Source of the DNA: Taibaiella sp.
GTDB taxonomy: Bacteria; Bacteroidota; Bacteroidia; Chitinophagales; Chitinophagaceae
Length of the DNA stretch: 64,000 nucleotides
Direction: 5' to 3'
Assembly (NCBI GenBank): GCA_019638495.1
Contig: JAHBTQ010000002.1
Location: forward strand, 744,001 to 808,000
Shown here: in pieces, positions 42,078 through 55,558 of the stretch
How positions within the stretch are numbered: position 1 is the stretch's first letter
Layout of the letters: each line of letters starts with the position of its first letter
Notes under the pieces: model-generated
Told to the model about the DNA's origin: nothing
The model's database searches: none
Seen by the model: the letters and a program-made list of their open reading frames with translations, nothing else
Program-made: the position numbers and the translations under genes

Positions 42078-43312
42078 AACTTAATTGGTTTCATTAAAGG
42101 GTAGTTATCTTTAAGACTTTCTGGTGTGAGACTTGGAATTACCCGTTCAGACCGGTCTAGTAGTGTAGTAATAAGGCTTCGAAAAAGCATCATAGCTGGT
42201 GGGTTTTTCTCTACTACCATACTGAACATGCTCACCGGCCTGTAAGGCACGTCGCCTATTTTGTTCTTATCCAGGTCATAGCCTTCGTATTTATCCCAGT
42301 AGTTATTATCGAATGTATTGAGAACGAGTGAGCCACTTGTTCCGACATCAAATGTATTTCCGAGAAAGTTGTTGTTTGTAAGTGCAATATCCATACAGCT
42401 GGATTGAATCTTAAGCCCCCAGCCGTTCTCTTTGAAATTGTTGTTACACATTTTCACCCGGCTGACACCCTCCATAAATATGCCACTAGTATTGCGCTCA
42501 AAGTAGTTGCCGTCTATGTAGCTATCCGATATTTCCTTTAACAATATTCCGTAAGATCCATCTCCCCAGTTCTCTATAAAGTAATTGTGAAACATTTTGA
42601 CTTTGTTCGAGAACATAACAGATACACCTGCACCATTATTCTCGAAAATATTTGCAGCATAAGTGTCGCTGTTCGAAAACATAAAATGCAGACCGTATCG
42701 GATATTCTTGACGGAAATGTTTCTCCATATTATAGAATTGGTAACAAATTCAAAGTAGATGCCGTCCCGATGACCGCTAATTTTATTTCCAATCACCTGA
42801 ATACTATCACCTTTCCAGCAATGCACTCCATTGCCGCTTTGTTGTTCCTGCAGCTGATGTGCGGTCATTGTGTTGTTTCGGATGATGCAGTTTGTACAAT
42901 TCTGCAGATAGATGCCGAAGAAGCAATCAACAAGAATGTTATTTACAATCGTTACATGATGGCTGTCGTAAATTTTTATCCCGGCGAAATCGACAATACT
43001 GGATATCCCTGAGTTTCGGATCTCGAAACCGTAAATTGTAACATTGTCAGCTTTGACCGATACGTTTTGAAATTTATGTTCGCCATCAAGTACAGGGCGG
43101 CCAATACCAATAAGCACTACTTGCTTATTGATGGTAAGATTCTGTTCATTATAAATACCCTTTTCTACCCAAATTGTATCTTTGTCTTTTGCACGAAATA
43201 AGCCTTCTGTTATGGTTTTGAGCATTTGTTGCTTTCCCACTCTCAGCCCCGAACCACTAGCTAAATAGTGGCAAAACAGAAAAAACAGCGATATGGGTAT
43301 GATCTTTTTCAA
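42074..43312 (-). CDS. nosD: NosD, periplasmic right-handed beta-helix protein for NosZ copper-site assembly
   Basis: 412 residues. A signal peptide ends at about SGSG, followed by many short repeats of the parallel beta-helix type (IRNNTMTAH, VIGNKISGHRDGIYFEFV, SVMFSNKVKMFHNYFIENWGDG, YIDGNYFERNTSGIF). NosD is the periplasmic component that hands sulfur or copper to apo-NosZ. The start overlaps the stop of nosL (ATGA). Confidence 0.92.
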   Translation of the reverse strand: MKKIIPISLFFLFCHYLASGSGLRVGKQQMLKTITEGLFRAKDKDTIWVEKGIYNEQNLTINKQVVLIGIGRPVLDGEHKFQNVSVKADNVTIYGFEIRNSGISSIVDFAGIKIYDSHHVTIVNNILVDCFFGIYLQNCTNCIIRNNTMTAHQLQEQQSGNGVHCWKGDSIQVIGNKISGHRDGIYFEFVTNSIIWRNISVKNIRYGLHFMFSNSDTYAANIFENNGAGVSVMFSNKVKMFHNYFIENWGDGSYGILLKEISDSYIDGNYFERNTSGIFMEGVSRVKMCNNNFKENGWGLKIQSSCMDIALTNNNFLGNTFDVGTSGSLVLNTFDNNYWDKYEGYDLDKNKIGDVPYRPVSMFSMVVEKNPPAMMLFRSLITTLLDRSERVIPSLTPESLKDNYPLMKPIKL

Positions 43313-44325
43313 TATATCTTTTCCCAGCTTGTTTGTTCACCATGAAAAGTAGCCATTGCAAAATCCAAACTATCCTGATTGCTAAAAGCTGCCAGGTGTC
43401 CGTTCATTGGGCACTTTAGCTCTTTGCTTTTCAGTAATAAGCTGCTTTTTGCTTCAACTAGTGAATGACTTCCAGAGAAGTCCGTGAAATAGGCAGTTGC
43501 GTTTTTCACTTTATCCTTATCCAACGATTTTGAGAATGCATTTAAACAAACAATGTCGTCAAACTTATAGGCCTTGCCTGTGCTTATCAATAGCTCTGCG
43601 CCAAATCTAGGATCAGAAATGGTCATTCTGCAATAGTCACAATTATCTACCCCTATCTTTATGGGAATAGGCGCTGGGCTGCAACTAGTCAATAGTAAGG
43701 CAGGCAATAGCAACAGTAGTAGTTGACCATTTAGCGTGCGAAGCCTGTATACATTTTTCAATTCCAATACAAAGCAAAACAAGAGTGCTGCACCGCAAGC
43801 AATAAATAGCCACCCGCCAATATCGGGAATAGAATAGGCTCCAAAATTAAGAAGCTGTTTAAATCCTATTAGCGGCGGCTGATATGCCATTCCGGGTACC
43901 ACTATTGCCGCATGCGGGTCTAAATTGTGGCCATAGTCATATTCCCATTTCCAAAAGTCTACCATGGCTATTACCCCAAAAGCTACAAATGAAAAGAACG
44001 CAGCGTTAAGCATTTTTCTTTTATTGAGCAGGGCGACGGCAAAGAACAACAATGCAAATAGCGTAACAATGTATGGCAGCACAGTAAATTCAATGAAGTC
44101 TTCGGAATGCAGGGTCTTCATACCTATGTAGTGGTTAAGGCCATTAATGATCGCCACATCTCCTTTAATGCCGTTGGCATGAATTGCAAGGCTCAGTCCT
44201 TCTGGATATTGTGGTGCATTTAGTTCTATCCGCCACATTGGGACAAACAATACCCCGATGAGACAAATACCGCAAATTGCCACGATAACTCTTGTCATTA
44301 ACCTCAAATTGTTACTGCTCTTCAT
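43309..44325 (-). CDS. nosL: NosL fused to an N-terminal multi-TM membrane domain
   Basis: 338 residues. The C-terminal 130 or so residues are NosL: a lipobox-like LLTSC, then DNCDYCRM (Cu(I)-binding Cys/Met motif), FDDIVCLNAF and LVEAKSSLLLKS. The N-terminal about 205 residues contain five or more membrane segments of unknown function (VVPGMAYQPPLIGFKQLLNFGAYSIPDIGGWLF is a characteristic stretch). NosL is a copper chaperone for NosZ. The fused membrane half may be a separate copper-handling module. No in-frame start near the lipobox suggests a split gene. Confidence 0.85.
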   Translation of the reverse strand: MKSSNNLRLMTRVIVAICGICLIGVLFVPMWRIELNAPQYPEGLSLAIHANGIKGDVAIINGLNHYIGMKTLHSEDFIEFTVLPYIVTLFALLFFAVALLNKRKMLNAAFFSFVAFGVIAMVDFWKWEYDYGHNLDPHAAIVVPGMAYQPPLIGFKQLLNFGAYSIPDIGGWLFIACGAALLFCFVLELKNVYRLRTLNGQLLLLLLPALLLTSCSPAPIPIKIGVDNCDYCRMTISDPRFGAELLISTGKAYKFDDIVCLNAFSKSLDKDKVKNATAYFTDFSGSHSLVEAKSSLLLKSKELKCPMNGHLAAFSNQDSLDFAMATFHGEQTSWEKIY

Positions 44326-44456: not shown

Positions 44457-46448
44457 TTACTTACCTTCGGCGGTTTCAGCAGCAGGCATGTTTTTGCCAG
44501 TACTGAATAACAAGGGTACGTTACTACCAGACGGAGAAACCCGGACATAGCCAGACATTTCCTGATGTAAGGCACTACAAAAGTCGGTGCAATAGAATGG
44601 AGAAATACCCACTTTGTCAGGCACCCATTTCAATGTTTGGGTTTCACCTGGCATAATCAGTAGTTCGGCCGTGAGGGCACCCTTTATAGCAAAACCATGA
44701 GGTACATCCCAGTCTTGCTCTAGATTTGTGACGTGAAAATAGACCTCGTCGCCCATCCTTATTCCTTCGATATTATCTGGTGTAAGGTGTGATCTGATGG
44801 CTGTCATGTATACATGTACTATTTTCCCTTCACGCACAACCTTAGTTGTGCCCTCTCCATTTGATACGTATTGATTTGCGTTCTCTTCAAGCTTATAAAA
44901 TTTCACTGAGTTGCCTTTTATAACATCTGCGCTTACCGCCTGGGCGTAGTGCGGTTCTCCAATGGTTGGGAAATCGAGAATCAACTGCATTTTATCCCCG
45001 CTTATGTCATAGATCTGTGCACTTTGCGATAGTTCAGGCCCGGTTGGCAGGAACCTGTCTTTTGTGATTTTATTATATGCGATCAGGTATTTGCCATTGG
45101 GTTTCCTGGAGTCACCACCCGGCACACAAATATGTCCGACCGAATAAAATGTTGGCGCTCTGTCGACAACTTTCAAATCCTTGATATTCCACTTTACCAC
45201 CTCGCTTGAAACAAACATGGATGTATACGCATTTCCTCTTCCATCAAATTCGGTATGCAAAGGGCCAAGACCAGGCTTTTTCACTTCGCCATATAGTACA
45301 GCATCATATTTAAGCACCGGTATGCCGCCAAATTCGCCTTCATATGCTTTGTCGGCAATAGCCTTCTGCAACTTATCGAAACTAAAAACAGGTATTAACG
45401 CAGCGAGTTTTCCGCTTCCCACTATGTATTCACCGGTTGGATCAACATCACATCCGTGAGGAGATTTTGGACATGGAAAGAAGTAGCAAATGTCTTTCAG
45501 GTCAGCCACATCCAGTACGGTAACTTCTGTTCTTATTTCGGAGGTAGCTGTGTGCGATTTCTCATCATAGTAGTTATGGGCGTACTTTACCGCCTGTTTT
45601 CTACCCTTGCCAGCCTTGACATACTCTTCTGCTTTCTTCCAATTTACAGCCATTATAAAGTCTTTATCCTTCTGCGAGGCGTTAACTTCAAGCAATGTAT
45701 TAGCCTGTTCTGTATTATAGCAACTGAAGAAGAACCAGCCATGGGATTTCCCCTTGCCGGCATGAGAAAGGTCGAAATTTACAGCAGGGCACAAAAGCTG
45801 AAAAGCAATTTCCATTTTGCCATCTTCTTTGCCAACACTTATGAAGCTTATATGTGCTTTGAAATTCTGCTTATAAGTATTTATTGGAACATCTCCATCT
45901 TTGTTGTCAGGGGGGACGCTGAAACGTGTGCCTGCAACCACGTATTCAGTATTTTCTGTAATGAAAGGCGAACTATGGTTGCCACCGCTATTTGGCAATT
46001 CAATTATCTCGGCAGTCCTGAAAGTTTTCAAATCAACCCTTCCTACTCTTGGAGTATTGTTCGCATTTACAAACACCCACCGTCCATCAATTTCACCATT
46101 GGTCTGCGACATCTCTACGTGGTGCAAATCATCCCATGGCACGCTACCATGCGAAGTTGAAAGCATCGGCTTGGTTTCTTCGCTATAGCCATACCCCTTT
46201 TCCGGATCAACAGAAAAAACTGGAATTACCCGCAATAACCTTCCGCTTGGCAAGCCGTATACACTTAGCTGTCCGCTAAATCCGCCTGAGACAAAATTGT
46301 AGAATCCATCGTACTTACCGGGTGCAACATATGACTTGGACGCTGCATCACCAGTTACGGCATTTCCTGCGTTTTTAGGTTTGCAGGCATTTATTCCCAC
46401 TATCAGCCCTGTGGCTGTTATGACGGAGAGGTATTTGAGGTAATTCAT
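44457..46448 (-). CDS. nosZ: Nitrous oxide reductase NosZ, clade II, lipoprotein signal type
   Basis: 663 residues. An N-terminal hydrophobic segment ends in lipobox-like INAC (residues 20-23): a Sec/lipoprotein export signal rather than a Tat signal, as is typical of clade II (atypical) NosZ. The seven-bladed beta-propeller carries CuZ-type histidines (DDLHHVEMS and others). The C-terminal cupredoxin CuA motif C-x3-C-x3-H-x2-M is complete (Cys620, Cys624, His628, Met631; FYCTDFCSALHQEM). It reduces N2O to N2 in the periplasm. A cytochrome c gene precedes it by about 40 bp. Confidence 0.96.
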   Translation of the reverse strand: MNYLKYLSVITATGLIVGINACKPKNAGNAVTGDAASKSYVAPGKYDGFYNFVSGGFSGQLSVYGLPSGRLLRVIPVFSVDPEKGYGYSEETKPMLSTSHGSVPWDDLHHVEMSQTNGEIDGRWVFVNANNTPRVGRVDLKTFRTAEIIELPNSGGNHSSPFITENTEYVVAGTRFSVPPDNKDGDVPINTYKQNFKAHISFISVGKEDGKMEIAFQLLCPAVNFDLSHAGKGKSHGWFFFSCYNTEQANTLLEVNASQKDKDFIMAVNWKKAEEYVKAGKGRKQAVKYAHNYYDEKSHTATSEIRTEVTVLDVADLKDICYFFPCPKSPHGCDVDPTGEYIVGSGKLAALIPVFSFDKLQKAIADKAYEGEFGGIPVLKYDAVLYGEVKKPGLGPLHTEFDGRGNAYTSMFVSSEVVKWNIKDLKVVDRAPTFYSVGHICVPGGDSRKPNGKYLIAYNKITKDRFLPTGPELSQSAQIYDISGDKMQLILDFPTIGEPHYAQAVSADVIKGNSVKFYKLEENANQYVSNGEGTTKVVREGKIVHVYMTAIRSHLTPDNIEGIRMGDEVYFHVTNLEQDWDVPHGFAIKGALTAELLIMPGETQTLKWVPDKVGISPFYCTDFCSALHQEMSGYVRVSPSGSNVPLLFSTGKNMPAAETAEGK

Positions 46449-46490: not shown

Positions 46491-46979
46491 CTAATTGACA
46501 CCGTCGTTCTTGCGCATAAACTCATAGACTGCGCGGGCTTCATCATCGCTGATATTTTGATTGGGCATTCTCACCAAACAAATTTCCAATTGTGCCTGTG
46601 CTTGGGGGTCTTTGTCTAGCATAACATCGGGGTTAGTTGCAAAATTCATTATCCACTCTGCGGTGTGCCGCTTAGTTACATCCTTCCACCCAGGGCCTAC
46701 GAGTTTTTCATCAGTAAGTTTATGGCAACTAGTACATTTTACCTCATATACTTTGTTTCCGTTTGTCGCCATAGCTTCATCTAGTTTTGGACTAATGTCC
46801 ACATTCGAGAATTTCCCTTCACCCCGCTCAGGGTCATATGAGGGATTCGCATTGGCGGCGGCCTGTGCCTCCGGAGATCCGCCTTCCATTACGTATGGGT
46901 TTTTTTCTTCGTCTGAACTATTTCCGCCACATGCAGCCAATATGCTGCAGATAACAGCCAAATACATTAGTTTTTTCAT
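46491..46979 (-). CDS. Cytochrome c lipoprotein preceding nosZ
   Basis: 162 residues. The lipobox LAAC at about residue 15-18 is followed by a linker and a single class I cytochrome c domain with CTSCH, the distal VRMPNQNISDDEARAVYEFM (axial Met in RMPNQ). It probably delivers electrons to NosZ. It begins the nosZ transcription unit, 42 bp upstream of nosZ. An FNR-like site lies 68 bp before its start codon. Confidence 0.9.
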   Translation of the reverse strand: MKKLMYLAVICSILAACGGNSSDEEKNPYVMEGGSPEAQAAANANPSYDPERGEGKFSNVDISPKLDEAMATNGNKVYEVKCTSCHKLTDEKLVGPGWKDVTKRHTAEWIMNFATNPDVMLDKDPQAQAQLEICLVRMPNQNISDDEARAVYEFMRKNDGVN

Positions 46980-47248: not shown

Positions 47249-47884
47249 ATGATGATAGACATTGATTTGTTACTGACATTAGGTGCTACTTATAAAAAGG
47301 TTAGTCAGGGTGAGATAATATTTATGGAGGGTAGCAGGTGCAATTTCTATCATCAATTGGTATGTGGAAAAATAAGATGGAACAACATAAATGATGAGGG
47401 AAAGGAGTACCTCCAATCAATGGTGGAGCCCGGAGAAAGTTTTGGTGAGTTGCCCTTATTTGATGAAGGGCCATATGTAGCCTCTGCTACTGCTGAGGAA
47501 GATTCCGTCATTATCAAACTGCACATATCTACCTTCCACCAGTTGCTTGCAGAGTATCCGGAAATACTGATGTCTTTTTCAAAACTACTTGCTCAGCGCC
47601 TTAAGTTTAAGTTCTTTATGCTCAAGGATCTTCTTTGCAAAGAACCCGAGGAACGTATTTCCTCACTGCTCACCTACTTGCGGCAGACAAAGCATAACAT
47701 TTGCGCTGAATGCGGCAAGGTAAAGCTAACTCGTCAGCAGATAGCTAATATGACGTGCCTTCGCGTAGAGACGGTAATCAGGGCGATGAGAAACATGAAC
47801 GACCGGGGCGATATATCCATCCGTAAGGGAAAGGTTTATTGTGGGAATATGACTCCAGTCATATCTGATCGTTGCTCGAATTAG
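47249..47884 (+). CDS. Crp/Fnr-family transcription regulator of the denitrification region
   Basis: 211 residues. An N-terminal cyclic-nucleotide-binding-like beta-roll (PGESFGELPLFDEGPYVASATA) precedes a dimerisation helix and a winged HTH (LTRQQIANMTCLRVETVIRAM). The recognition helix keeps the Glu and Arg (VETVIR) that in FNR contact TGA half-sites, which fits the ATGAY-N4-RTCAT boxes nearby. Cysteines are numerous (RCNFY, LVCGK, LLCKE, ICAECGK, MTC, KVYCG), including CAEC at the hinge to the HTH, so direct redox or NO sensing is possible. Downstream genes follow within 30-60 bp. Confidence 0.88.
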   Translation: MMIDIDLLLTLGATYKKVSQGEIIFMEGSRCNFYHQLVCGKIRWNNINDEGKEYLQSMVEPGESFGELPLFDEGPYVASATAEEDSVIIKLHISTFHQLLAEYPEILMSFSKLLAQRLKFKFFMLKDLLCKEPEERISSLLTYLRQTKHNICAECGKVKLTRQQIANMTCLRVETVIRAMRNMNDRGDISIRKGKVYCGNMTPVISDRCSN

Positions 47885-47913: not shown

Positions 47914-49149
47914 ATGAATTTAAAGAAATGGGTGCTGCTGGCCTTCGTAAACCTGTTGATCGTATCTGTACTGGGGGTTATTCTCAGGTACAAGATTGCT
48001 TTTTCACTGGCATTTATCGACCAGAAGAAATTATTACATGGTCATTCTCATTTTGCGTTTAGCGGTTGGGTGTCCTTGGCATTAATGGCATTCATTGTTT
48101 CCCGCCTTTCAGCATACACGGGTCAAAACCTTGTCAAAAGATACAACCGGATACTAGTTGCTAATTTGATTTGCGCCTATGGCATGCTGGTCAGCTTCCC
48201 GATTCAGGGATACGGGTTGTTTTCTATCCTGTTTTCTACCACCTCACTATTTGTATCTTACTGGTTTGCTATACAAGTATGGAGAGATATAAATAACATT
48301 TTACAGAAAAGTATAGCTCTGTTATGGTTCAAAGCGGCGACGCTTTTTAATGCGCTGGCTTCTATTGGTGCATTTGCGCTTGCATTTATGATGGCAACCA
48401 AAACCGTGCACCAGACCTGGTATCTGGGATCGGTGTATTTTTTCCTTCATTTCCAGTATAATGGTTGGTTTTCATTTACGATATTGGGCCTATTGTTTGA
48501 AAAACTACAGGATACAGAAACGCCTGTGCACCAACTAAAAAAGATATTCTGGTTGTTTGCCTTGTCATGCGGGCCAGCCTTTTTCCTGTCTGCACTTTGG
48601 CTGCCAATTCCTTCGGTTGTGTATTTTCTGGTGGTATTAGCTGCGGTAGCGCAGGTTGCCGCGTGGATATGGACTATTAAAGTTCTGTACGCAAAAAGAA
48701 TAGCTATGCAACGGCAAATTCCTAAACTTGCTCTGCTGACACTGAAATTATCGCTGTTTGCAATGACCATAAAACTATTCCTTCAACTAGGGTCTACAAT
48801 ACCATCTCTCAGCGACTTGGCGTTTGGGTTCAGGCCTATCGTTATCGGGTATCTTCATTTGGTGCTGCTTGGGTTTACCAGCTTATTTATCCTAGGGTAT
48901 GCTATGTATTCGGGCATTGTGCCATCGGGAAACAAGAGCAAAATAGGTATCATTGTATTCATTTCGGGCATTTTCCTCAATGAGATTGCGCTTATGGTGC
49001 AGGGCGTAGCTGCCATGAGCTATACTGTGGTACCGTATATTAATGAAGCACTATTGGTAGCGGCCGTTGTTTTATTTGCTGGTTTATTGGTGCTCAATAT
49101 ATCTTTTCGAAAGAATCTTATGAATACAGATTCCATGACTTTACAATAG
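47914..49149 (+). CDS. Histidine-containing multi-TM protein of unknown function
   Basis: 411 residues with about ten to twelve transmembrane helices. Helices carry LLHGHSHFAFSGW (about residues 41-53), YFFLHFQYNGWFSF (about 177-190) and IGYLHLVLLGF (about 306-316). These resemble histidine-bearing helices of haem-copper oxidase and NO reductase subunits I, but no full subunit-I signature is present. It starts 29 bp after the Crp/Fnr gene and precedes the NorC-like gene, so it is probably in the same operon and may bind haem. It is not NnrS by its motifs. Confidence 0.65.
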   Translation: MNLKKWVLLAFVNLLIVSVLGVILRYKIAFSLAFIDQKKLLHGHSHFAFSGWVSLALMAFIVSRLSAYTGQNLVKRYNRILVANLICAYGMLVSFPIQGYGLFSILFSTTSLFVSYWFAIQVWRDINNILQKSIALLWFKAATLFNALASIGAFALAFMMATKTVHQTWYLGSVYFFLHFQYNGWFSFTILGLLFEKLQDTETPVHQLKKIFWLFALSCGPAFFLSALWLPIPSVVYFLVVLAAVAQVAAWIWTIKVLYAKRIAMQRQIPKLALLTLKLSLFAMTIKLFLQLGSTIPSLSDLAFGFRPIVIGYLHLVLLGFTSLFILGYAMYSGIVPSGNKSKIGIIVFISGIFLNEIALMVQGVAAMSYTVVPYINEALLVAAVVLFAGLLVLNISFRKNLMNTDSMTLQ

Positions 49150-49211: not shown

Positions 49212-49562
49212 TTGAAAAAGGTCGCAACAATATCTATACTGCTTGTGCTGTATGCAGCGTATAGTAGCTGGATCTACACATCTGGCACCGCTATTGCCGC
49301 AACGATGACTACCGAAGCCATGCGGGGCAAACAATTATGGCAGCGACTCAATTGCCAGACTTGCCACCAGTTGTATGGTTTGGGTGGCTATATGGGGCCC
49401 GACCTCACAACAGTAATTACAGATAAAGGCAGGGGTGCCGCTTATGCCAGGGGAATGATGCTAAGTGGCGGAAGACAAATGCCCAATTATCATCTTTCTG
49501 TCCAGGATGCAGACATGTTGCTTGCCTACCTGTCTTATGTCAACGGCACTCAATCACGATAA
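49212..49562 (+). CDS. norC: NorC-like membrane-anchored cytochrome c
   Basis: 116 residues. An N-terminal anchor helix (about 5-20) is followed by a short cytochrome c domain: LWQRLNCQTCHQLYGLGGYMGPDLTTV (CxxCH and the GGYxGPD loop typical of NorC) and the axial Met in GRQMPNY. It ends 10 bp before the NorB-like gene, so the pair probably forms a NorCB-type complex. Confidence 0.88.
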   Translation: MKKVATISILLVLYAAYSSWIYTSGTAIAATMTTEAMRGKQLWQRLNCQTCHQLYGLGGYMGPDLTTVITDKGRGAAYARGMMLSGGRQMPNYHLSVQDADMLLAYLSYVNGTQSR

Positions 49563-49572
49563 TCCTAATACC

Positions 49573-50889
49573 ATGAAACAAAAAGCGATTGCAAACAGGT
49601 TTATTGTGCTTGGTTTTGCCTGTCTTCTATTGAGTATCTCCTTTGGCCTTATCGCCAGCTTTAAATATTTAATACCGAATTTCCCCGACGACATCCTTTC
49701 TTTTCAACATACCCGCCCGTTACATGTATTTCTGGCTGTAAGCTGGATTTTTGCTGCTGTTACAGGAATAATATACAGGTACATACCAGATATATCTGGC
49801 AGGCCTCTTTATTCTGTGCCACTGGCAAAAACTCATTTCTCACTTCAGCTTGCAACCATCGTTATCGCTGTTTCCGGATTTTTTACGGGACATTTCTCTG
49901 GCCGGGAATATCTCGAATTTCCGCCGTGGATAACCGTAATAATAATATTGTATTGGATAATGTTCGTCACGAATTTTGTATTGACTGTAAAACCGGTGCT
50001 TAAAACAGCACCAGTATACGTGTGGATGTGGTGTACCGGGCTTTTATTTTTCCTCATCACTATTGTTGAGGCGAACCTATGGCTACTGCCTCACTTCAAT
50101 AATAATATTGTGCGCGACATTACCGTGCAGTGGAAAGCAAACGGCAGCATGGTAGGCGCATGGAATATGTTGATCTACGGTTCTACCATGTTTGCTATGC
50201 AGCAAATAACAGGAGATAGCAAAATGGGATACAACAAGATTTCGTTTGCGTTCTACTTTCTGGGGCTTACCAATCTCATGTTCAATTGGGGGCACCATAC
50301 TTACGTGGTACCGGCCCACCCGGCGGTAAAACAGGTTGCATATATTATTAGCATGACGGAATTGGCTTTCCTGGCCAATATCATGCTGAATTGGCGAGCC
50401 AACTTTAGCAAAAAACCAATTGAAGCGTACCGTCTATCCTTTCTTTTTTTCAGGGCAGCAGACATTTGGGTACTACTGAACCTGATACTGGCAATAGCCA
50501 TTTCAATTCCCTATATCAATCAATATACGCACGGCACGCAGATTACCGTGGCGCATGCCATGGGGGCCACAATTGGCATCAATAGCCTGTTACTTATGGG
50601 GTCGGTAACATTCCTTTTCGAAAAGCAAATGAAAAGCAAATGGAACAAAACTATATTGCGTGGGCTGAGGGCTATTCATGTCTCTTTGTTGTTTTTCTGG
50701 ATTTCCTTGATAGGTGCAGGCGTTATGCGCGCAGTTGCCCTTTACCAACACTACTATTTTGCACAGGTTTCCAAACGGATGCTTCCCTTTTTACAGCTAT
50801 TTTCGATGTCCGGTATCTTTCTGGCAATAGGTATTGGTGTGGTTTCCTACATGTTCATAAAGGTCATTTCTTCACATATATCTATATAG
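49573..50889 (+). CDS. NorB-like haem-copper oxidase subunit I with altered metal ligands
   Basis: The start at 49573 (MKQKAIANRFIVLGF) follows norC by 10 bp; the frame to 49465 overlaps norC and is not family-like. About 438 residues, roughly 12 helices. Alignment by eye with cNorB keeps His51 (low-spin haem ligand, RPLHVFL), the His241-His242 pair (NWGHHTY) and His328 (TVAHAMG, haem b3 ligand) with the preceding YTHGTQ. Two positions differ: the helix-VI FeB ligand His is Asn190 or the next Gly (QWKANGSMVGAW), and the second low-spin haem ligand (HGH in cNorB) is Met330 (HAM). NO reduction is therefore uncertain; it could be a diverged NOR or a related electron-transfer subunit. Confidence 0.8.
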   Translation: MKQKAIANRFIVLGFACLLLSISFGLIASFKYLIPNFPDDILSFQHTRPLHVFLAVSWIFAAVTGIIYRYIPDISGRPLYSVPLAKTHFSLQLATIVIAVSGFFTGHFSGREYLEFPPWITVIIILYWIMFVTNFVLTVKPVLKTAPVYVWMWCTGLLFFLITIVEANLWLLPHFNNNIVRDITVQWKANGSMVGAWNMLIYGSTMFAMQQITGDSKMGYNKISFAFYFLGLTNLMFNWGHHTYVVPAHPAVKQVAYIISMTELAFLANIMLNWRANFSKKPIEAYRLSFLFFRAADIWVLLNLILAIAISIPYINQYTHGTQITVAHAMGATIGINSLLLMGSVTFLFEKQMKSKWNKTILRGLRAIHVSLLFFWISLIGAGVMRAVALYQHYYFAQVSKRMLPFLQLFSMSGIFLAIGIGVVSYMFIKVISSHISI

Positions 50890-51217: not shown

Positions 51218-51292
51218 AAGTTATCACAAGGGATGCTACGACCTTTGAATTCTTATACAACAGGCACAAATGCCAATATAAGAATCAACAAA

Positions 51293-53098
51293 ATGCATAC
51301 ATTTCATATCCCGGTTCTAGGCTTAAGTTATTCAGTGGATACGCCATTAAAAGTAGCTAGATATGGCATCTCTTCTGTTGTGTCAATCATCGAAGATGAA
51401 TTGGTAGAGAAAATGAGGGCGCACCATTGCCTAAAAAGCGGCGAACCTTATACGGCAATTACAACAAACATAGATGACTACAGGGCGAAACGCATTACGG
51501 CCTACCTGAATCTTCTCAATAAATTGGTGAAGCTTCAGCACCTCTCCGTGAAGAAAATGCCATTTGATGAGGGTAGTGACATAGTAAGGTATTTTGAAAT
51601 GCTCTCCGATTCCGACGCTGCTAAGAAGTTATTTAATGAAATGACGCGATTGCCGGAAGGAGCGCAAAAGGTACTGCTACAGCAGCGGTTGCGTGAGCAA
51701 ATTGAGGCTGGAGCAATTGACGTAAATATTATGGCAAAAGTGGACAATCTGAATCATCAGAAGGATGGTACACCACTGCCTGTAGAATACTCGGATGCGC
51801 TCTCTGCGTTGCGGGGTTTCGCTAACAGCGACCTTCAATCATCGGTGGTTCTTTCCGCTGGTTACAATCCAAGACTATACAGCTACCTCGAAAACTTTAG
51901 TGACTTTTTTCCCGGAGAAGACAATCTACTCAGAAAAAGAATTATCCTGAAGGTAAGTGATTATCGATCAGCATTGATACAAGGGAAAATACTAGCGAAG
52001 AAGGGTGTTTGGGTTTCCGAGTTCAGGATAGAATCGGGTCTGAACTGCGGCGGGCATGCCTTCGCCACAGATGGCTTCCTGCTCGGACCTATCTTAGAAG
52101 AGTTCCGGCAAAAAAGGACAGAGCTTGCTGCAGAGTTACTGGAACTTTGTAATAAGGCCAATGAAACAAAAGGCAACAATAGATTTAGCACACCGCCTTC
52201 GATGAGGATTACCGTACAAGGTGGTATTGGCACAGCAAATGAAGATGCATTTCTCAGGGAATATTACCAGCTTGATGGAACAGGATGGGGGAGCCCTTTT
52301 CTATTGGTGCCCGAAGCCACAAATGTGGATTACGGCACACTGGATCAACTTGCAACCGCTGCAAAAAGCGACTATTACTTAAGCTATGCGTCGCCGCTCG
52401 GAATACCGTTTCATAATTTTAGAAAAAGCACATCAGAACAACAGCGGATTGAACGAGTAAGAAAGGGACGACCCGGTAGCCCATGCTACAAGAAATTTCT
52501 TTCGTCAAATACTGAATTTACCACCACGCCTATTTGTACGGCTTCACGGCAATACCAGGATCTTAAAATCAAACAACTGAAAGAAAGAGCCCTTCCCGCT
52601 GACGAGTATAAGGCCGAACTGGACAGAGTCACAGAGAAAGACTGCCTTTGTGAAGGTCTGTCTTCGTCTGCATTGCTTAAGGACGGCATACACACTTCCC
52701 ACAATCTCAAAGCTGTAACCATATGTCCGGGTCCAAATCTGGCATTCTTTTCAGGTACATTTACCCTGTCTGATATGATAAGTCATATTTATGGCAGGAA
52801 GAACATACTCAATCCATTACCTCGCCCGAATATGTTCATTAACGAATTGAACCTTTATGTCGACTACCTCAAAAATGAGATTGATAAATGCGCACACATA
52901 CTGAACCAGAAACAGGAGAAATTTCTCAATTCATTTCGTGCCAATCTGCTCAATGGAATAAATTATTACAAAACATTGGCACCCGATCTGAAAAAGGAAA
53001 CAGCAGAATACATAGATAGAATGATGTGTCAGTTATGCGATTATCAAAACCAGCTGAACACTTTGTCGATAACTGCCGAAGTGCCGGTACAACAATAG
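51293..53098 (+). CDS. Uncharacterised roughly 600-residue protein, possible flavin/TIM-barrel enzyme with Cys clusters
   Basis: The start at 51293 (MHTFHIPVLGLSYSVDTPLKVARYG) is preferred over 51233, which would lie at the inferred transcription start. 601 residues. IPVLGLSYSVDTPLKVARYGISS at the N-terminus and VQGGIGTANEDAFL in the middle recall the phosphate-binding loops of nitronate-monooxygenase/2-nitropropane-dioxygenase-like FMN barrels. Cysteines lie in GLNCGGH, GSPCYKK, TPICTAS, KDCLCEG and TICPGPN and could bind a metal or Fe-S centre. I recognise the family as recurrent in Bacteroidota but without a known function. It starts a three-gene operon with PRODH and a PLP decarboxylase. 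Confidence 0.65.
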   Translation: MHTFHIPVLGLSYSVDTPLKVARYGISSVVSIIEDELVEKMRAHHCLKSGEPYTAITTNIDDYRAKRITAYLNLLNKLVKLQHLSVKKMPFDEGSDIVRYFEMLSDSDAAKKLFNEMTRLPEGAQKVLLQQRLREQIEAGAIDVNIMAKVDNLNHQKDGTPLPVEYSDALSALRGFANSDLQSSVVLSAGYNPRLYSYLENFSDFFPGEDNLLRKRIILKVSDYRSALIQGKILAKKGVWVSEFRIESGLNCGGHAFATDGFLLGPILEEFRQKRTELAAELLELCNKANETKGNNRFSTPPSMRITVQGGIGTANEDAFLREYYQLDGTGWGSPFLLVPEATNVDYGTLDQLATAAKSDYYLSYASPLGIPFHNFRKSTSEQQRIERVRKGRPGSPCYKKFLSSNTEFTTTPICTASRQYQDLKIKQLKERALPADEYKAELDRVTEKDCLCEGLSSSALLKDGIHTSHNLKAVTICPGPNLAFFSGTFTLSDMISHIYGRKNILNPLPRPNMFINELNLYVDYLKNEIDKCAHILNQKQEKFLNSFRANLLNGINYYKTLAPDLKKETAEYIDRMMCQLCDYQNQLNTLSITAEVPVQQ

Positions 53099-53101
53099 AC
53101 G

Positions 53102-54289
53102 ATGATCCCCGATATTGATAATACAGAAATTGCTTTCAGGTACCGAACGGACAATGAGTTGAAACGTGCCCATTTCCTGTTCTCTTGCATATCCTCGCCG
53201 CTGCTTACAAAATTTGGGATAAAGGCTGTACAAGCCGCAATGGCATTGCATTTACCCATTGACGGGATATTAAAGCGAACCATTTTCACGCAATTCTGCG
53301 GAGGCGAGACACTCGAAGAAACAGCAAAAACCGCTGCCCTGTCAGGCAAATATAATGTAGGGAGCATTTTAGATTATGGTGTTGAAGGCGCAGAAGGAGA
53401 ACCTGAATATGACAGAGCTGTTGAAGAGTGTATCAGAGCCATTCGCTTTGCGGCGGCCAATAAGGACATACCGTTTGTAAGCATGAAGATCACAGGCTAC
53501 TGCCGGTTTGGGCTACTTGTAAAAATGCATAACGGTACTCCACTGATCATAACCGAAGAGCAGGAGTGGCAGAGAGTAGGCAATCGGATCAACGAAATAT
53601 GCACGACGGCCGCTAGTTGCAATGTCATGGTATTGATAGATGCGGAAGAAACCTGGATACAGGATCCCTGCAACGAGATTACTGTGCAAATGATGCTAAA
53701 GTTCAATCATGGTAAAGTAGTAGTCTTCAATACATTTCAGATGTATTGCCACGGCACATTATCCTATCTGACTGAAGCTATAAAGCACGCTACCGACAAT
53801 GACTACTTGCTTGGGGCAAAACTGGTAAGGGGAGCCTACATGGAAAAAGAGCGTGCGCACGCAAGGCAATGGCAATACGCAGATCCCATTCAGCCAGACA
53901 AGGAGTGTACTGACAAAGATTATGATGAGGCCGTGCGGCTTTGCCTGCAAAGCTTGGATCGTTTGTCGTTGTTCATTGGCACCCATAACGAGCAAAGTTG
54001 CTTGAAGGCGGTGGAGCTTATGAACAAATGTGGCATTGCGAGCAATGACGACCGATTGATATTTTCGCAGCTTTTTGGAATGAGCGACCACATCTCCTTC
54101 AATTTTGCGTCGGCAGGTTACCGCGTGGCAAAATATTTGCCGTATGGCCCTGTCAAAAATGTGGTCCCTTACCTTTTGAGACGCGCTACGGAAAACACAT
54201 CTGTTGCCGGACAAACATCTCGTGAGCTTTCCCTGATAAGGAAAGAGACGAAAAGGAGAAGTTTATCCATGTCAACAGACCGCAAATAA
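53102..54289 (+). CDS. Proline dehydrogenase-family FAD enzyme
   Basis: 395 residues. PRODH TIM-barrel motifs are complete: GSILDYGVEG, SMKITGYCRFG, LIDAEETWIQ, FNTFQMYCHGT, GAKLVRGAYMEKER, GTHNEQS and the C-terminal YLPYGPVKNVVPYLLRRATENT. The enzyme would oxidise proline to P5C and reduce a quinone or FAD acceptor. No P5C dehydrogenase is adjacent. The gene begins 3 bp after the upstream gene. Substrate could be proline or a related cyclic amino acid. Confidence 0.88.
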   Translation: MIPDIDNTEIAFRYRTDNELKRAHFLFSCISSPLLTKFGIKAVQAAMALHLPIDGILKRTIFTQFCGGETLEETAKTAALSGKYNVGSILDYGVEGAEGEPEYDRAVEECIRAIRFAAANKDIPFVSMKITGYCRFGLLVKMHNGTPLIITEEQEWQRVGNRINEICTTAASCNVMVLIDAEETWIQDPCNEITVQMMLKFNHGKVVVFNTFQMYCHGTLSYLTEAIKHATDNDYLLGAKLVRGAYMEKERAHARQWQYADPIQPDKECTDKDYDEAVRLCLQSLDRLSLFIGTHNEQSCLKAVELMNKCGIASNDDRLIFSQLFGMSDHISFNFASAGYRVAKYLPYGPVKNVVPYLLRRATENTSVAGQTSRELSLIRKETKRRSLSMSTDRK

Positions 54290-54319: not shown

Positions 54320-55558
54320 ATGGAAATGAAGTATTGGAAGAAGTTGTCGCACAAGGAGCAGGATACCAGAATTACGGAAGCTCTGGAGATAAATATTAAC
54401 TACAGGGATATTGTTCCGATAGGAATCCCGGTTTCAAAACTTGATTCCAATGTTTTCTATGAGCACGCTTCGTTTCTTAAAGAGGCCCCGTTGTTAAGGG
54501 CGTTTATTCAGAACCCCAACCACATTGGATGCCATACGTTGGGTGTTTCAGAACCCTTCTTTGAGGGCACGCAGCAACTGGAGCGGGAAGTAATTGAATT
54601 ACTTAGTGTCGACCTCCTGAAAGCTGGCGACAATAGTTGCGATGGGTATATTGCAACGGGTGGAACAGAAGCCAATATCCAGGCGGCATGGATATACCGC
54701 AACTATTTTGTTGAAAATTTTAGTGCAAGGATTGAGGAAATTGCGCTGCTCAGTTCTCTCGACACGCACTATTCTGTAACTAAGGCCGCAAACCTTCTCA
54801 ATGTTCGCTCTATAGGGATACCAGTGAATGATGAGACAAGGATGATAGTTCCCGAATATCTGGACGGTGCAATTGAGCGTGCAAAAGCAGACGGTGTTAA
54901 GTATTTTATCGTTATTTCAAATATGGGGACAACCATGTTTGGTAGCGTTGATGATCCTGATCTTTATGCCGCACACCTTTCAAAGTATGATGTTGAGTAT
55001 AAAATACATGTCGACGGTGCATTCGGAGGATTTGTTTTTCCCGTAAGTTGTCCGGAAAATAATGTAAACTTCCTTAATCCTAATGTTTCATCGATAACGC
55101 TCGACGCACATAAAATGCTCCAGGCTCCTTATGGCACAGGTGTTTTTCTTGTGCGAAAAGGAATGATGCAATTTGTATGCACCAGGGAGGCCAAATACGT
55201 TAGCGGAATGGATATTACGCTTAGTGGCAGCCGTTCAGGGACAAACGCAATTGCGGTGTGGATGATTCTGTTTACCTATGGCGCCCACGGATGGTTTGAA
55301 AAGATCAGCAAATTGTTACTCCGTACAAAATGGCTGTGTACACAACTGGATATGATCAATGTTGGTTACTACAGACATCCATGTTTGAATATTGTGACGA
55401 TAAGGGCAGAGTATATACCTGTTCATATTGCAGGCAAATACGGAATGGTACCCGATACCCATACCGAAATGCCGAACTGGTATAAAATTGTGGTTATGGA
55501 TCACGTTGAGATTGAGTATTTGCAAAAGTTCATTGAGGAATTGACTGCTCAGATATAG
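54320..55558 (+). CDS. Group II PLP-dependent amino-acid decarboxylase
   Basis: 412 residues. Fold type I features: YIATGGTEANIQAA, the aspartate segment IHVDGAFGGF, and the PLP-binding lysine in TLDAHKMLQAPYGTG. Closest in style to histidine/tyrosine-type group II decarboxylases of bacteria; no transporter for an amine/amino-acid exchange is nearby, so acid resistance is not obvious. It starts 30 bp after the PRODH gene and closes the operon. Substrate unknown; it could act on a product of the two upstream enzymes. Confidence 0.85.
   Translation: MEMKYWKKLSHKEQDTRITEALEININYRDIVPIGIPVSKLDSNVFYEHASFLKEAPLLRAFIQNPNHIGCHTLGVSEPFFEGTQQLEREVIELLSVDLLKAGDNSCDGYIATGGTEANIQAAWIYRNYFVENFSARIEEIALLSSLDTHYSVTKAANLLNVRSIGIPVNDETRMIVPEYLDGAIERAKADGVKYFIVISNMGTTMFGSVDDPDLYAAHLSKYDVEYKIHVDGAFGGFVFPVSCPENNVNFLNPNVSSITLDAHKMLQAPYGTGVFLVRKGMMQFVCTREAKYVSGMDITLSGSRSGTNAIAVWMILFTYGAHGWFEKISKLLLRTKWLCTQLDMINVGYYRHPCLNIVTIRAEYIPVHIAGKYGMVPDTHTEMPNWYKIVVMDHVEIEYLQKFIEELTAQI

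Follow-up and report, generated by a model that had tools for sequence, protein, structure and literature searches.

The NorB-like locus

The window, i.e., the whole stretch of 64,000 nucleotides analysed here (Taibaiella sp., contig JAHBTQ010000002.1, positions 744,001 to 808,000), contains a gene resembling the large subunit of cytochrome c-type NO reductase (cNOR), which we call P0001. It lies in the following surroundings:

44457-46448, minus strand: nosZ, Sec-dependent (clade II) N2O reductase (TIGR04246, 917.7 bits), divergent from the norB-like operon
46491-46979, minus strand: cytochrome c gene, adjoining nosZ
47249-47884, plus strand: Crp/Fnr-family regulator, which opens the co-directional run
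47914-49149, plus strand: 411-residue membrane protein without Pfam or NCBIfam match, with an HCO-like predicted fold; it tracks nosZ across genomes
49212-49562, plus strand: norC-like gene, membrane-anchored monohaem cytochrome c, directly 5' of the norB-like gene
49573-50889, plus strand: norB-like gene P0001, 438 residues, HCO-fold membrane subunit with HxM for HxH and a helix VI without the FeB histidine

The regulator, the 411-residue protein, NorC and, as the last gene, the NorB-like protein are thus encoded co-directionally in this order; cytochrome c, nosZ and nosL are oriented divergently from them. A promoter and terminator scan of the window yielded counts little above those of shuffled sequence. 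The nosL gene (43309-44325, minus strand) encodes 338 residues, made up of an N-terminal membrane segment of several helices and, fused to it, the NosL domain; the long form is also seen in related loci. On the other side, at 51233-53098 (plus strand), a 621-residue protein without Pfam or NCBIfam match is encoded, and its gene is kept 3' of the norB-like gene in loci L032, L038 and L039. In the window it is followed by an apparent proline dehydrogenase (53102-54289) and an apparent PLP-dependent decarboxylase (54320-55558), both read by eye.

The translation of P0001 starts with MKQK and comprises 438 amino acids. It contains the domain of the haem-copper superfamily (Pfam COX1, PF00115, 6e-30). 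Its best sequence matches are the NorB chains of cNOR, 4xyd_A (2.6e-14) and 3o0r_B (1.9e-9); no family cut-off of NCBIfam was reached. Of the structure prediction with haem placement that an earlier note on this DNA had proposed, the fold is in hand: the AlphaFold model (pLDDT 86, pTM 0.89) is that of a cNOR NorB, and Foldseek returned 3o0r_B as the top PDB match (TM 0.86) to this multi-helix HCO fold. The adjoining gene is a proper NorC, as had been claimed, with a CxxCH motif, a downstream MP methionine ligand and an N-terminal membrane anchor. Such a cNOR-type partner gene adjoins the norB-like gene in nearly all homologous loci.

Ligand residues

A histidine sextet, made up of a bis-His low-spin haem and a three-His metal site, is treated as the signature of the haem-copper superfamily (PMC3413370). 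The corresponding positions in P0001 are:

49723-49725, plus strand: codon of His51, the low-spin haem b ligand in helix II, retained and invariant
50128-50166, plus strand: helix VI motif Q186-W-K188-A-N-G191-S-M-V-G-A-W-N198, with G191 at the FeB His position
50293-50298, plus strand: His241-His242, both FeB-type histidines of helix VII, retained and invariant
50359-50361, plus strand: Glu263, equivalent of cNOR E280, invariant
50554-50562, plus strand: His328-Ala-Met330, with the proximal haem b3 His kept and an invariant Met where HxH has its second His

Conservation was judged from an alignment of 56 P0001 homologues, with identities down to about 37%, gathered from relatives and from named genomes. 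His51, His241, His242, His328 and Met330 are invariant (56/56), and HxM takes the place of the cNOR HxH in every homologue. Helix VI of P0001, VQWKANGSMVGAWNML, is devoid of histidine. Residues 179-213 are His-free in 55 of the 56 homologues, and the sole exception (L016) has its His at the start of this stretch, far from the ligand position; nowhere in helix VI do the 56 homologues offer a histidine near that position. Instead, they share the invariant motif Q-W-K-x-x-G-x-x-V-G-x-W-N. Profile-profile alignments with both cNOR and CcoN as templates put the lost FeB His opposite the invariant Gly191; residue 190 varies within the family (N/L/M/Y/S), so that the ligand position is Gly191 and not N190. 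What the earlier note had read by eye is thereby borne out throughout: the FeB His of helix VI is gone, Met330 replaces the second His of the HGH motif, and His51, His241-His242 and His328 are kept. A histidine elsewhere in helix VI at the FeB position, which the note had named as evidence against its reading, did not turn up; the alignments have Gly191 there.

The carboxylates are likewise affected. We take the residue numbers and roles in P. aeruginosa cNOR (E211, E215, E280) from established knowledge of that structure. According to the profile alignment, E211 falls on a one-residue deletion in the family, while E215 is replaced by the invariant Asn198. The GRE(F/Y)LE calcium-site motif and THGT are retained. 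Leu235, six residues before the HH pair, occupies the place of the active-site Tyr of CcoN; the CuB His of helix VI and the Tyr of helix VII that mark a C-type (cbb3) O2 reductase are hence replaced by Gly191 and Leu235. Additional members from a phylum-wide sample have the identical ligand set wherever it is readable. The ligand set is a conserved family trait, not the decay of one gene, and the pattern across the homologues is far beyond chance; a chance substitution is ruled out by its conservation throughout the family.

A separate family

The family is mostly found in Chitinophagaceae and other Bacteroidota. Named carriers are Cloacibacterium normanense, Amniculibacterium aquaticum, Flavisolibacter ginsengisoli and the acidobacterium Sulfidibacter corallicola. 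Its profile matches cNOR with an E-value of 2.5e-33, CcoN with 9e-28 and qNOR with 4e-6; cNOR and CcoN are also the nearest fold matches. The phylogeny against NOR and oxidase families that had been suggested as a check was calculated with 62 rows; it has long branches, modest sampling, an unspecified root and no B-family reference NOR, and places the family in a single clade (support 100/99), apart from cNOR (99/95), qNOR (100/100) and the CcoN-type oxidases. Whatever its exact sister in this tree may be, the family is not nested inside cNOR. Dozens of columns, including the new residues, are invariant across the deep clade. The family, then, is old, separately branching and strongly conserved. 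With moderate confidence we regard P0001 as the large subunit in a complex of NorC and NorB-like proteins and place it on a branch of its own, strongly conserved, within the C-type part (cNOR/qNOR/cbb3) of the haem-copper superfamily.

With the NorB of cNOR (P. aeruginosa 3o0r, R. denitrificans 4xyd) the protein shares the fold, the length, the NorC partner, the equivalents of H51, H328, HH and E280, and the GREFLE and THGT motifs; it differs by the missing FeB His, the missing E211 and E215, HxM for HxH, the lack of NorD (see below) and its separate clade. With CcoN of the cbb3 oxidases it has in common the fold, the helix VI register, i.e., no E211 insertion, and the C-type relationship, yet it lacks the helix VI His, has Leu in place of the helix VII Tyr and Met in place of a low-spin haem His, and its partner is of the NorC type instead of CcoO/CcoP. 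The eNOR, sNOR, gNOR, nNOR and bNOR are also HCO members with altered active-site residues, but these are related to B-family oxidases (PMC11388526), whereas the closest profile and fold matches of P0001 point to the C-type branch. Identity with nNOR was set aside, since nNOR is described as related to the B family (PMC11388526).

A literature search that did not cover the primary HCO family survey yielded no description of a norB-like family with HxM and Gly191; an earlier mention is possible. The survey by Murali et al. (PNAS 2024) reportedly mentions further uncharacterised HCO families. In one MAG an in-frame TAG splits the norB-like sequence (L003 and L037, 66% identity) between residues 297 and 300; either a pseudogene or an assembly error could be the cause.

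Metal insertion

In cNOR, insertion of FeB depends on NorQ and NorD; when produced without NorQDEF, the enzyme has its full set of haems but neither FeB nor activity (PMC9976466). When 197 genomes were searched with a NorD from Bacteroidota, exactly five gave a hit (G071, G083, G088, G119, G161), and these are the five with a canonical cNOR. None of the 30 genomes with a norB-like gene and without canonical cNOR contains it (Fisher p = 3e-6, although the genomes are related and do not count as 30 independent events). A look at the loci of the latter genomes did not reveal a NorQ cluster either. In G083 and G161, norQ and norD are flanked by the canonical norCB on one side and by the norCB-like pair on the other.

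The acidic residues D220 and E222 of cNOR are needed for NorD-dependent activation and have a role in NorD docking (PMC9976466). If one counts on from the His of helix VI, using P. denitrificans numbering, they map to positions 216 and 218 of the family, which are acidic in 15/56 and 0/56 homologues, respectively. The absence of NorD is, however, no proof of absence of the metal, because qNOR inserts FeB without NorQ or NorD (PMC9976466). The FeB-free cNOR is haemylated NorCB without FeB, i.e., the state predicted for the P0001 complex. There (PMC9976466) it is an artefact of the missing chaperones with the ligands intact, whereas in P0001 and its relatives a ligand itself has been lost across a natural family.

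Genomic company and physiology

Recurrent neighbours of the norB-like gene are ScdA-type di-iron repair proteins, regulators of the Crp/Fnr and NsrR-like Rrf2 types, nos genes and ccoI/ccoNO, where the names of unlabelled neighbour clusters rest on sequence reading. This NO-linked company speaks for an NO-responsive complex. Of the 33 carriers, 26 have NosZ; of the 164 non-carriers, 71 do (Fisher p = 2e-4). With seven carriers devoid of nosZ and 71 nosZ genomes devoid of the norB-like gene, the latter is not a required part of the nos system; the same counts rule it out as the required electron donor of nosZ.

NirK occurs in eight of the 33 carriers. Seven of these have another plausible NOR: a cNOR in three, a qNOR in one and a B-family-like HCO in three. 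The last three have Gln or Asn at an active-site position, fitting the signatures of eNOR and sNOR (PMC8756737, Table A4), an assignment that is based on signature residues, NCBIfam naming being weak. In the eighth, G051, no other NOR was found. The idea that the norB-like protein is the sole respiratory NOR of denitrifiers is weakened by these findings. The HCO genes of the window genome are confined to aa3, ccoNO and P0001; neither NirK nor qNOR was detected in it. As an aside, L173, L174 and L175 (genomes G136, G053 and G183) encode an HCO whose active-site residue in helix VI is Gln (HSSQQ in L174). L174 also has HFK where oxidases have HFH, which suggests an eNOR-like enzyme whose low-spin haem has a changed ligand.

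Physiological data are available for a likely carrier. The genotypes of Cloacibacterium CB-01 and CB-03 have been read as NO to N2O to N2 (PMC9239227), but CB-01, with its annotated cNor, displayed only "minor NO reductase activity" (PMC11168931). In C. normanense the member of the norB-like family is the only NorB relative of the genome, and we infer that the "cNor" of CB-01 belongs to this family.

What the complex may do

The loss of FeB ligands, the lack of NorD and the frequent second NOR favour the view that the protein is not a canonical NO reductase. Annotation would name the norB-like gene of nitrous-oxide-respiring Bacteroidota an NO reductase, probably wrongly. On balance, and with about as much doubt as conviction, we see in it an NO-responsive, FeB-free NorCB paralogue with a His/Met low-spin haem that is not a respiratory NO reductase; its substrate is putative. 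A His/Met haem b is expected to have a raised potential. Electrons would pass from a periplasmic donor via the haem c of NorC to the His/Met-ligated, probably high-potential haem b, and from there to a five-coordinate haem b3, which would bind NO without a neighbouring FeB. From such binding a role as NO-responsive scavenger or as low-turnover NO-reacting haem enzyme would follow as the most likely one. The complex would protect N2O and O2 respiration; the respiratory coupling of 2 NO to N2O would not be its task. The earlier note had left the choice between a diverged NO reductase with a possible His/Met haem and a subunit that has given up NO reduction. Of the former, the altered haem coordination is supported by the family-wide invariance of Met330, as far as residues can tell; the diverged single gene has turned into a separate old family, in which two active-site carboxylates have gone as well. 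As to the latter, the evidence favours a protein other than the canonical NO reductase, which sets the two options apart only in part.

The most serious competitor is a genuine NO reductase with a rebuilt site, in which a non-haem metal is held by His241 and His242 together with Lys188, Gln186 or Asn198 and 2 NO still yield N2O. The invariance of His241, His242 and Glu263 counts against a metal-free reading, because these residues would be unnecessary without metal or proton chemistry. The new invariant polar residues of helix VI, Lys188, Gln186 or Asn198, could help to bind a metal; the NorC partner is conserved and the operon context is one of NO and N2O. G051, with NirK and no other NOR found, also speaks for a NOR, and eNOR, sNOR and gNOR show that active-site residues can be changed (PMC8756737, Table A4). 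Against it stand the restriction of NorD to genomes with canonical cNOR, the presence in most nirK carriers of another plausible NOR, beside which it would be redundant, and the minor activity of CB-01 (PMC11168931). We consider a rebuilt NO reductase unlikely, if worth keeping in mind.

Quite improbable is a non-catalytic subunit for electron transfer or NO sensing, e.g., a haem wire or a regulator tied to N2O respiration. The association with nosZ and the position beside nos genes, in the window as at many loci, point to it, but the mismatches in both directions of that association and the invariant proximal His of haem b3 count against it.

Still less probable is a different reaction at the altered site, such as dismutation of NO to N2 and O2 or NO oxidation, in principle similar to that of NO dismutase (NOD). 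The raised potential expected of a His/Met haem b would agree with it. NOD and the P0001 family have both lost one FeB His and active-site Glu: in NOD one coordinating His is changed to Asn and a near-site Glu to Gln (PMC3413370), in the family one His and two Glu are gone. The substitution patterns nevertheless differ. NOD is a single fused chain of the qNOR type in which the other histidines are kept (PMC3413370), whereas the family is not near qNOR, retains NorC and has a changed low-spin haem as well; moreover, a dismutase requires no electron donor.

That P0001 is a decaying, functionless copy of cNOR, as the lost canonical ligands and the one homologue split by a TAG stop might suggest, is ruled out for practical purposes by the invariant columns over a deep clade, the intact reading frames and the linkage to NorC in nearly all loci.

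For the preferred NO-responsive paralogue, a bolder and distinctly tentative proposal is that of a new type of reaction centre: an HCO enzyme performing NO chemistry at haem b3, with an FeB-free site or a Lys/Gln/Asn metal site and a natural His/Met haem b. With a conserved branch that breaks both signatures of the superfamily, the contributions of FeB and of the haem b ligand can be tested in a natural system. There is also a practical side. The annotated "cNor" of N2O-respiring Bacteroidota may well not be an NO reductase, and the Cloacibacterium strains that have been put forward for inoculating soils against N2O emissions are among those with such a "cNor"; if it is not an NO reductase, predictions of which organisms make N2O and which only consume it change.

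The 411-residue neighbour

The protein encoded at 47914-49149 was modelled by AlphaFold with a pLDDT of 89 and matches CcoN of cbb3 oxidases (TM about 0.75). His44, His46, His179 and His315 are invariant. Since the HH pair of helix VII is absent and a Tyr apparently occupies, by eye, the position of the haem b3 His, it may be an HCO-fold protein that binds one low-spin haem. It does not form an obligate pair with the norB-like gene, which is ruled out by its tracking nosZ instead: the gene is present in 83 of the 97 genomes that have nosZ and in 7 of the 100 that do not (p about 1e-31), and in view of this co-occurrence it may be an unrecognised gene linked to clade II nos.
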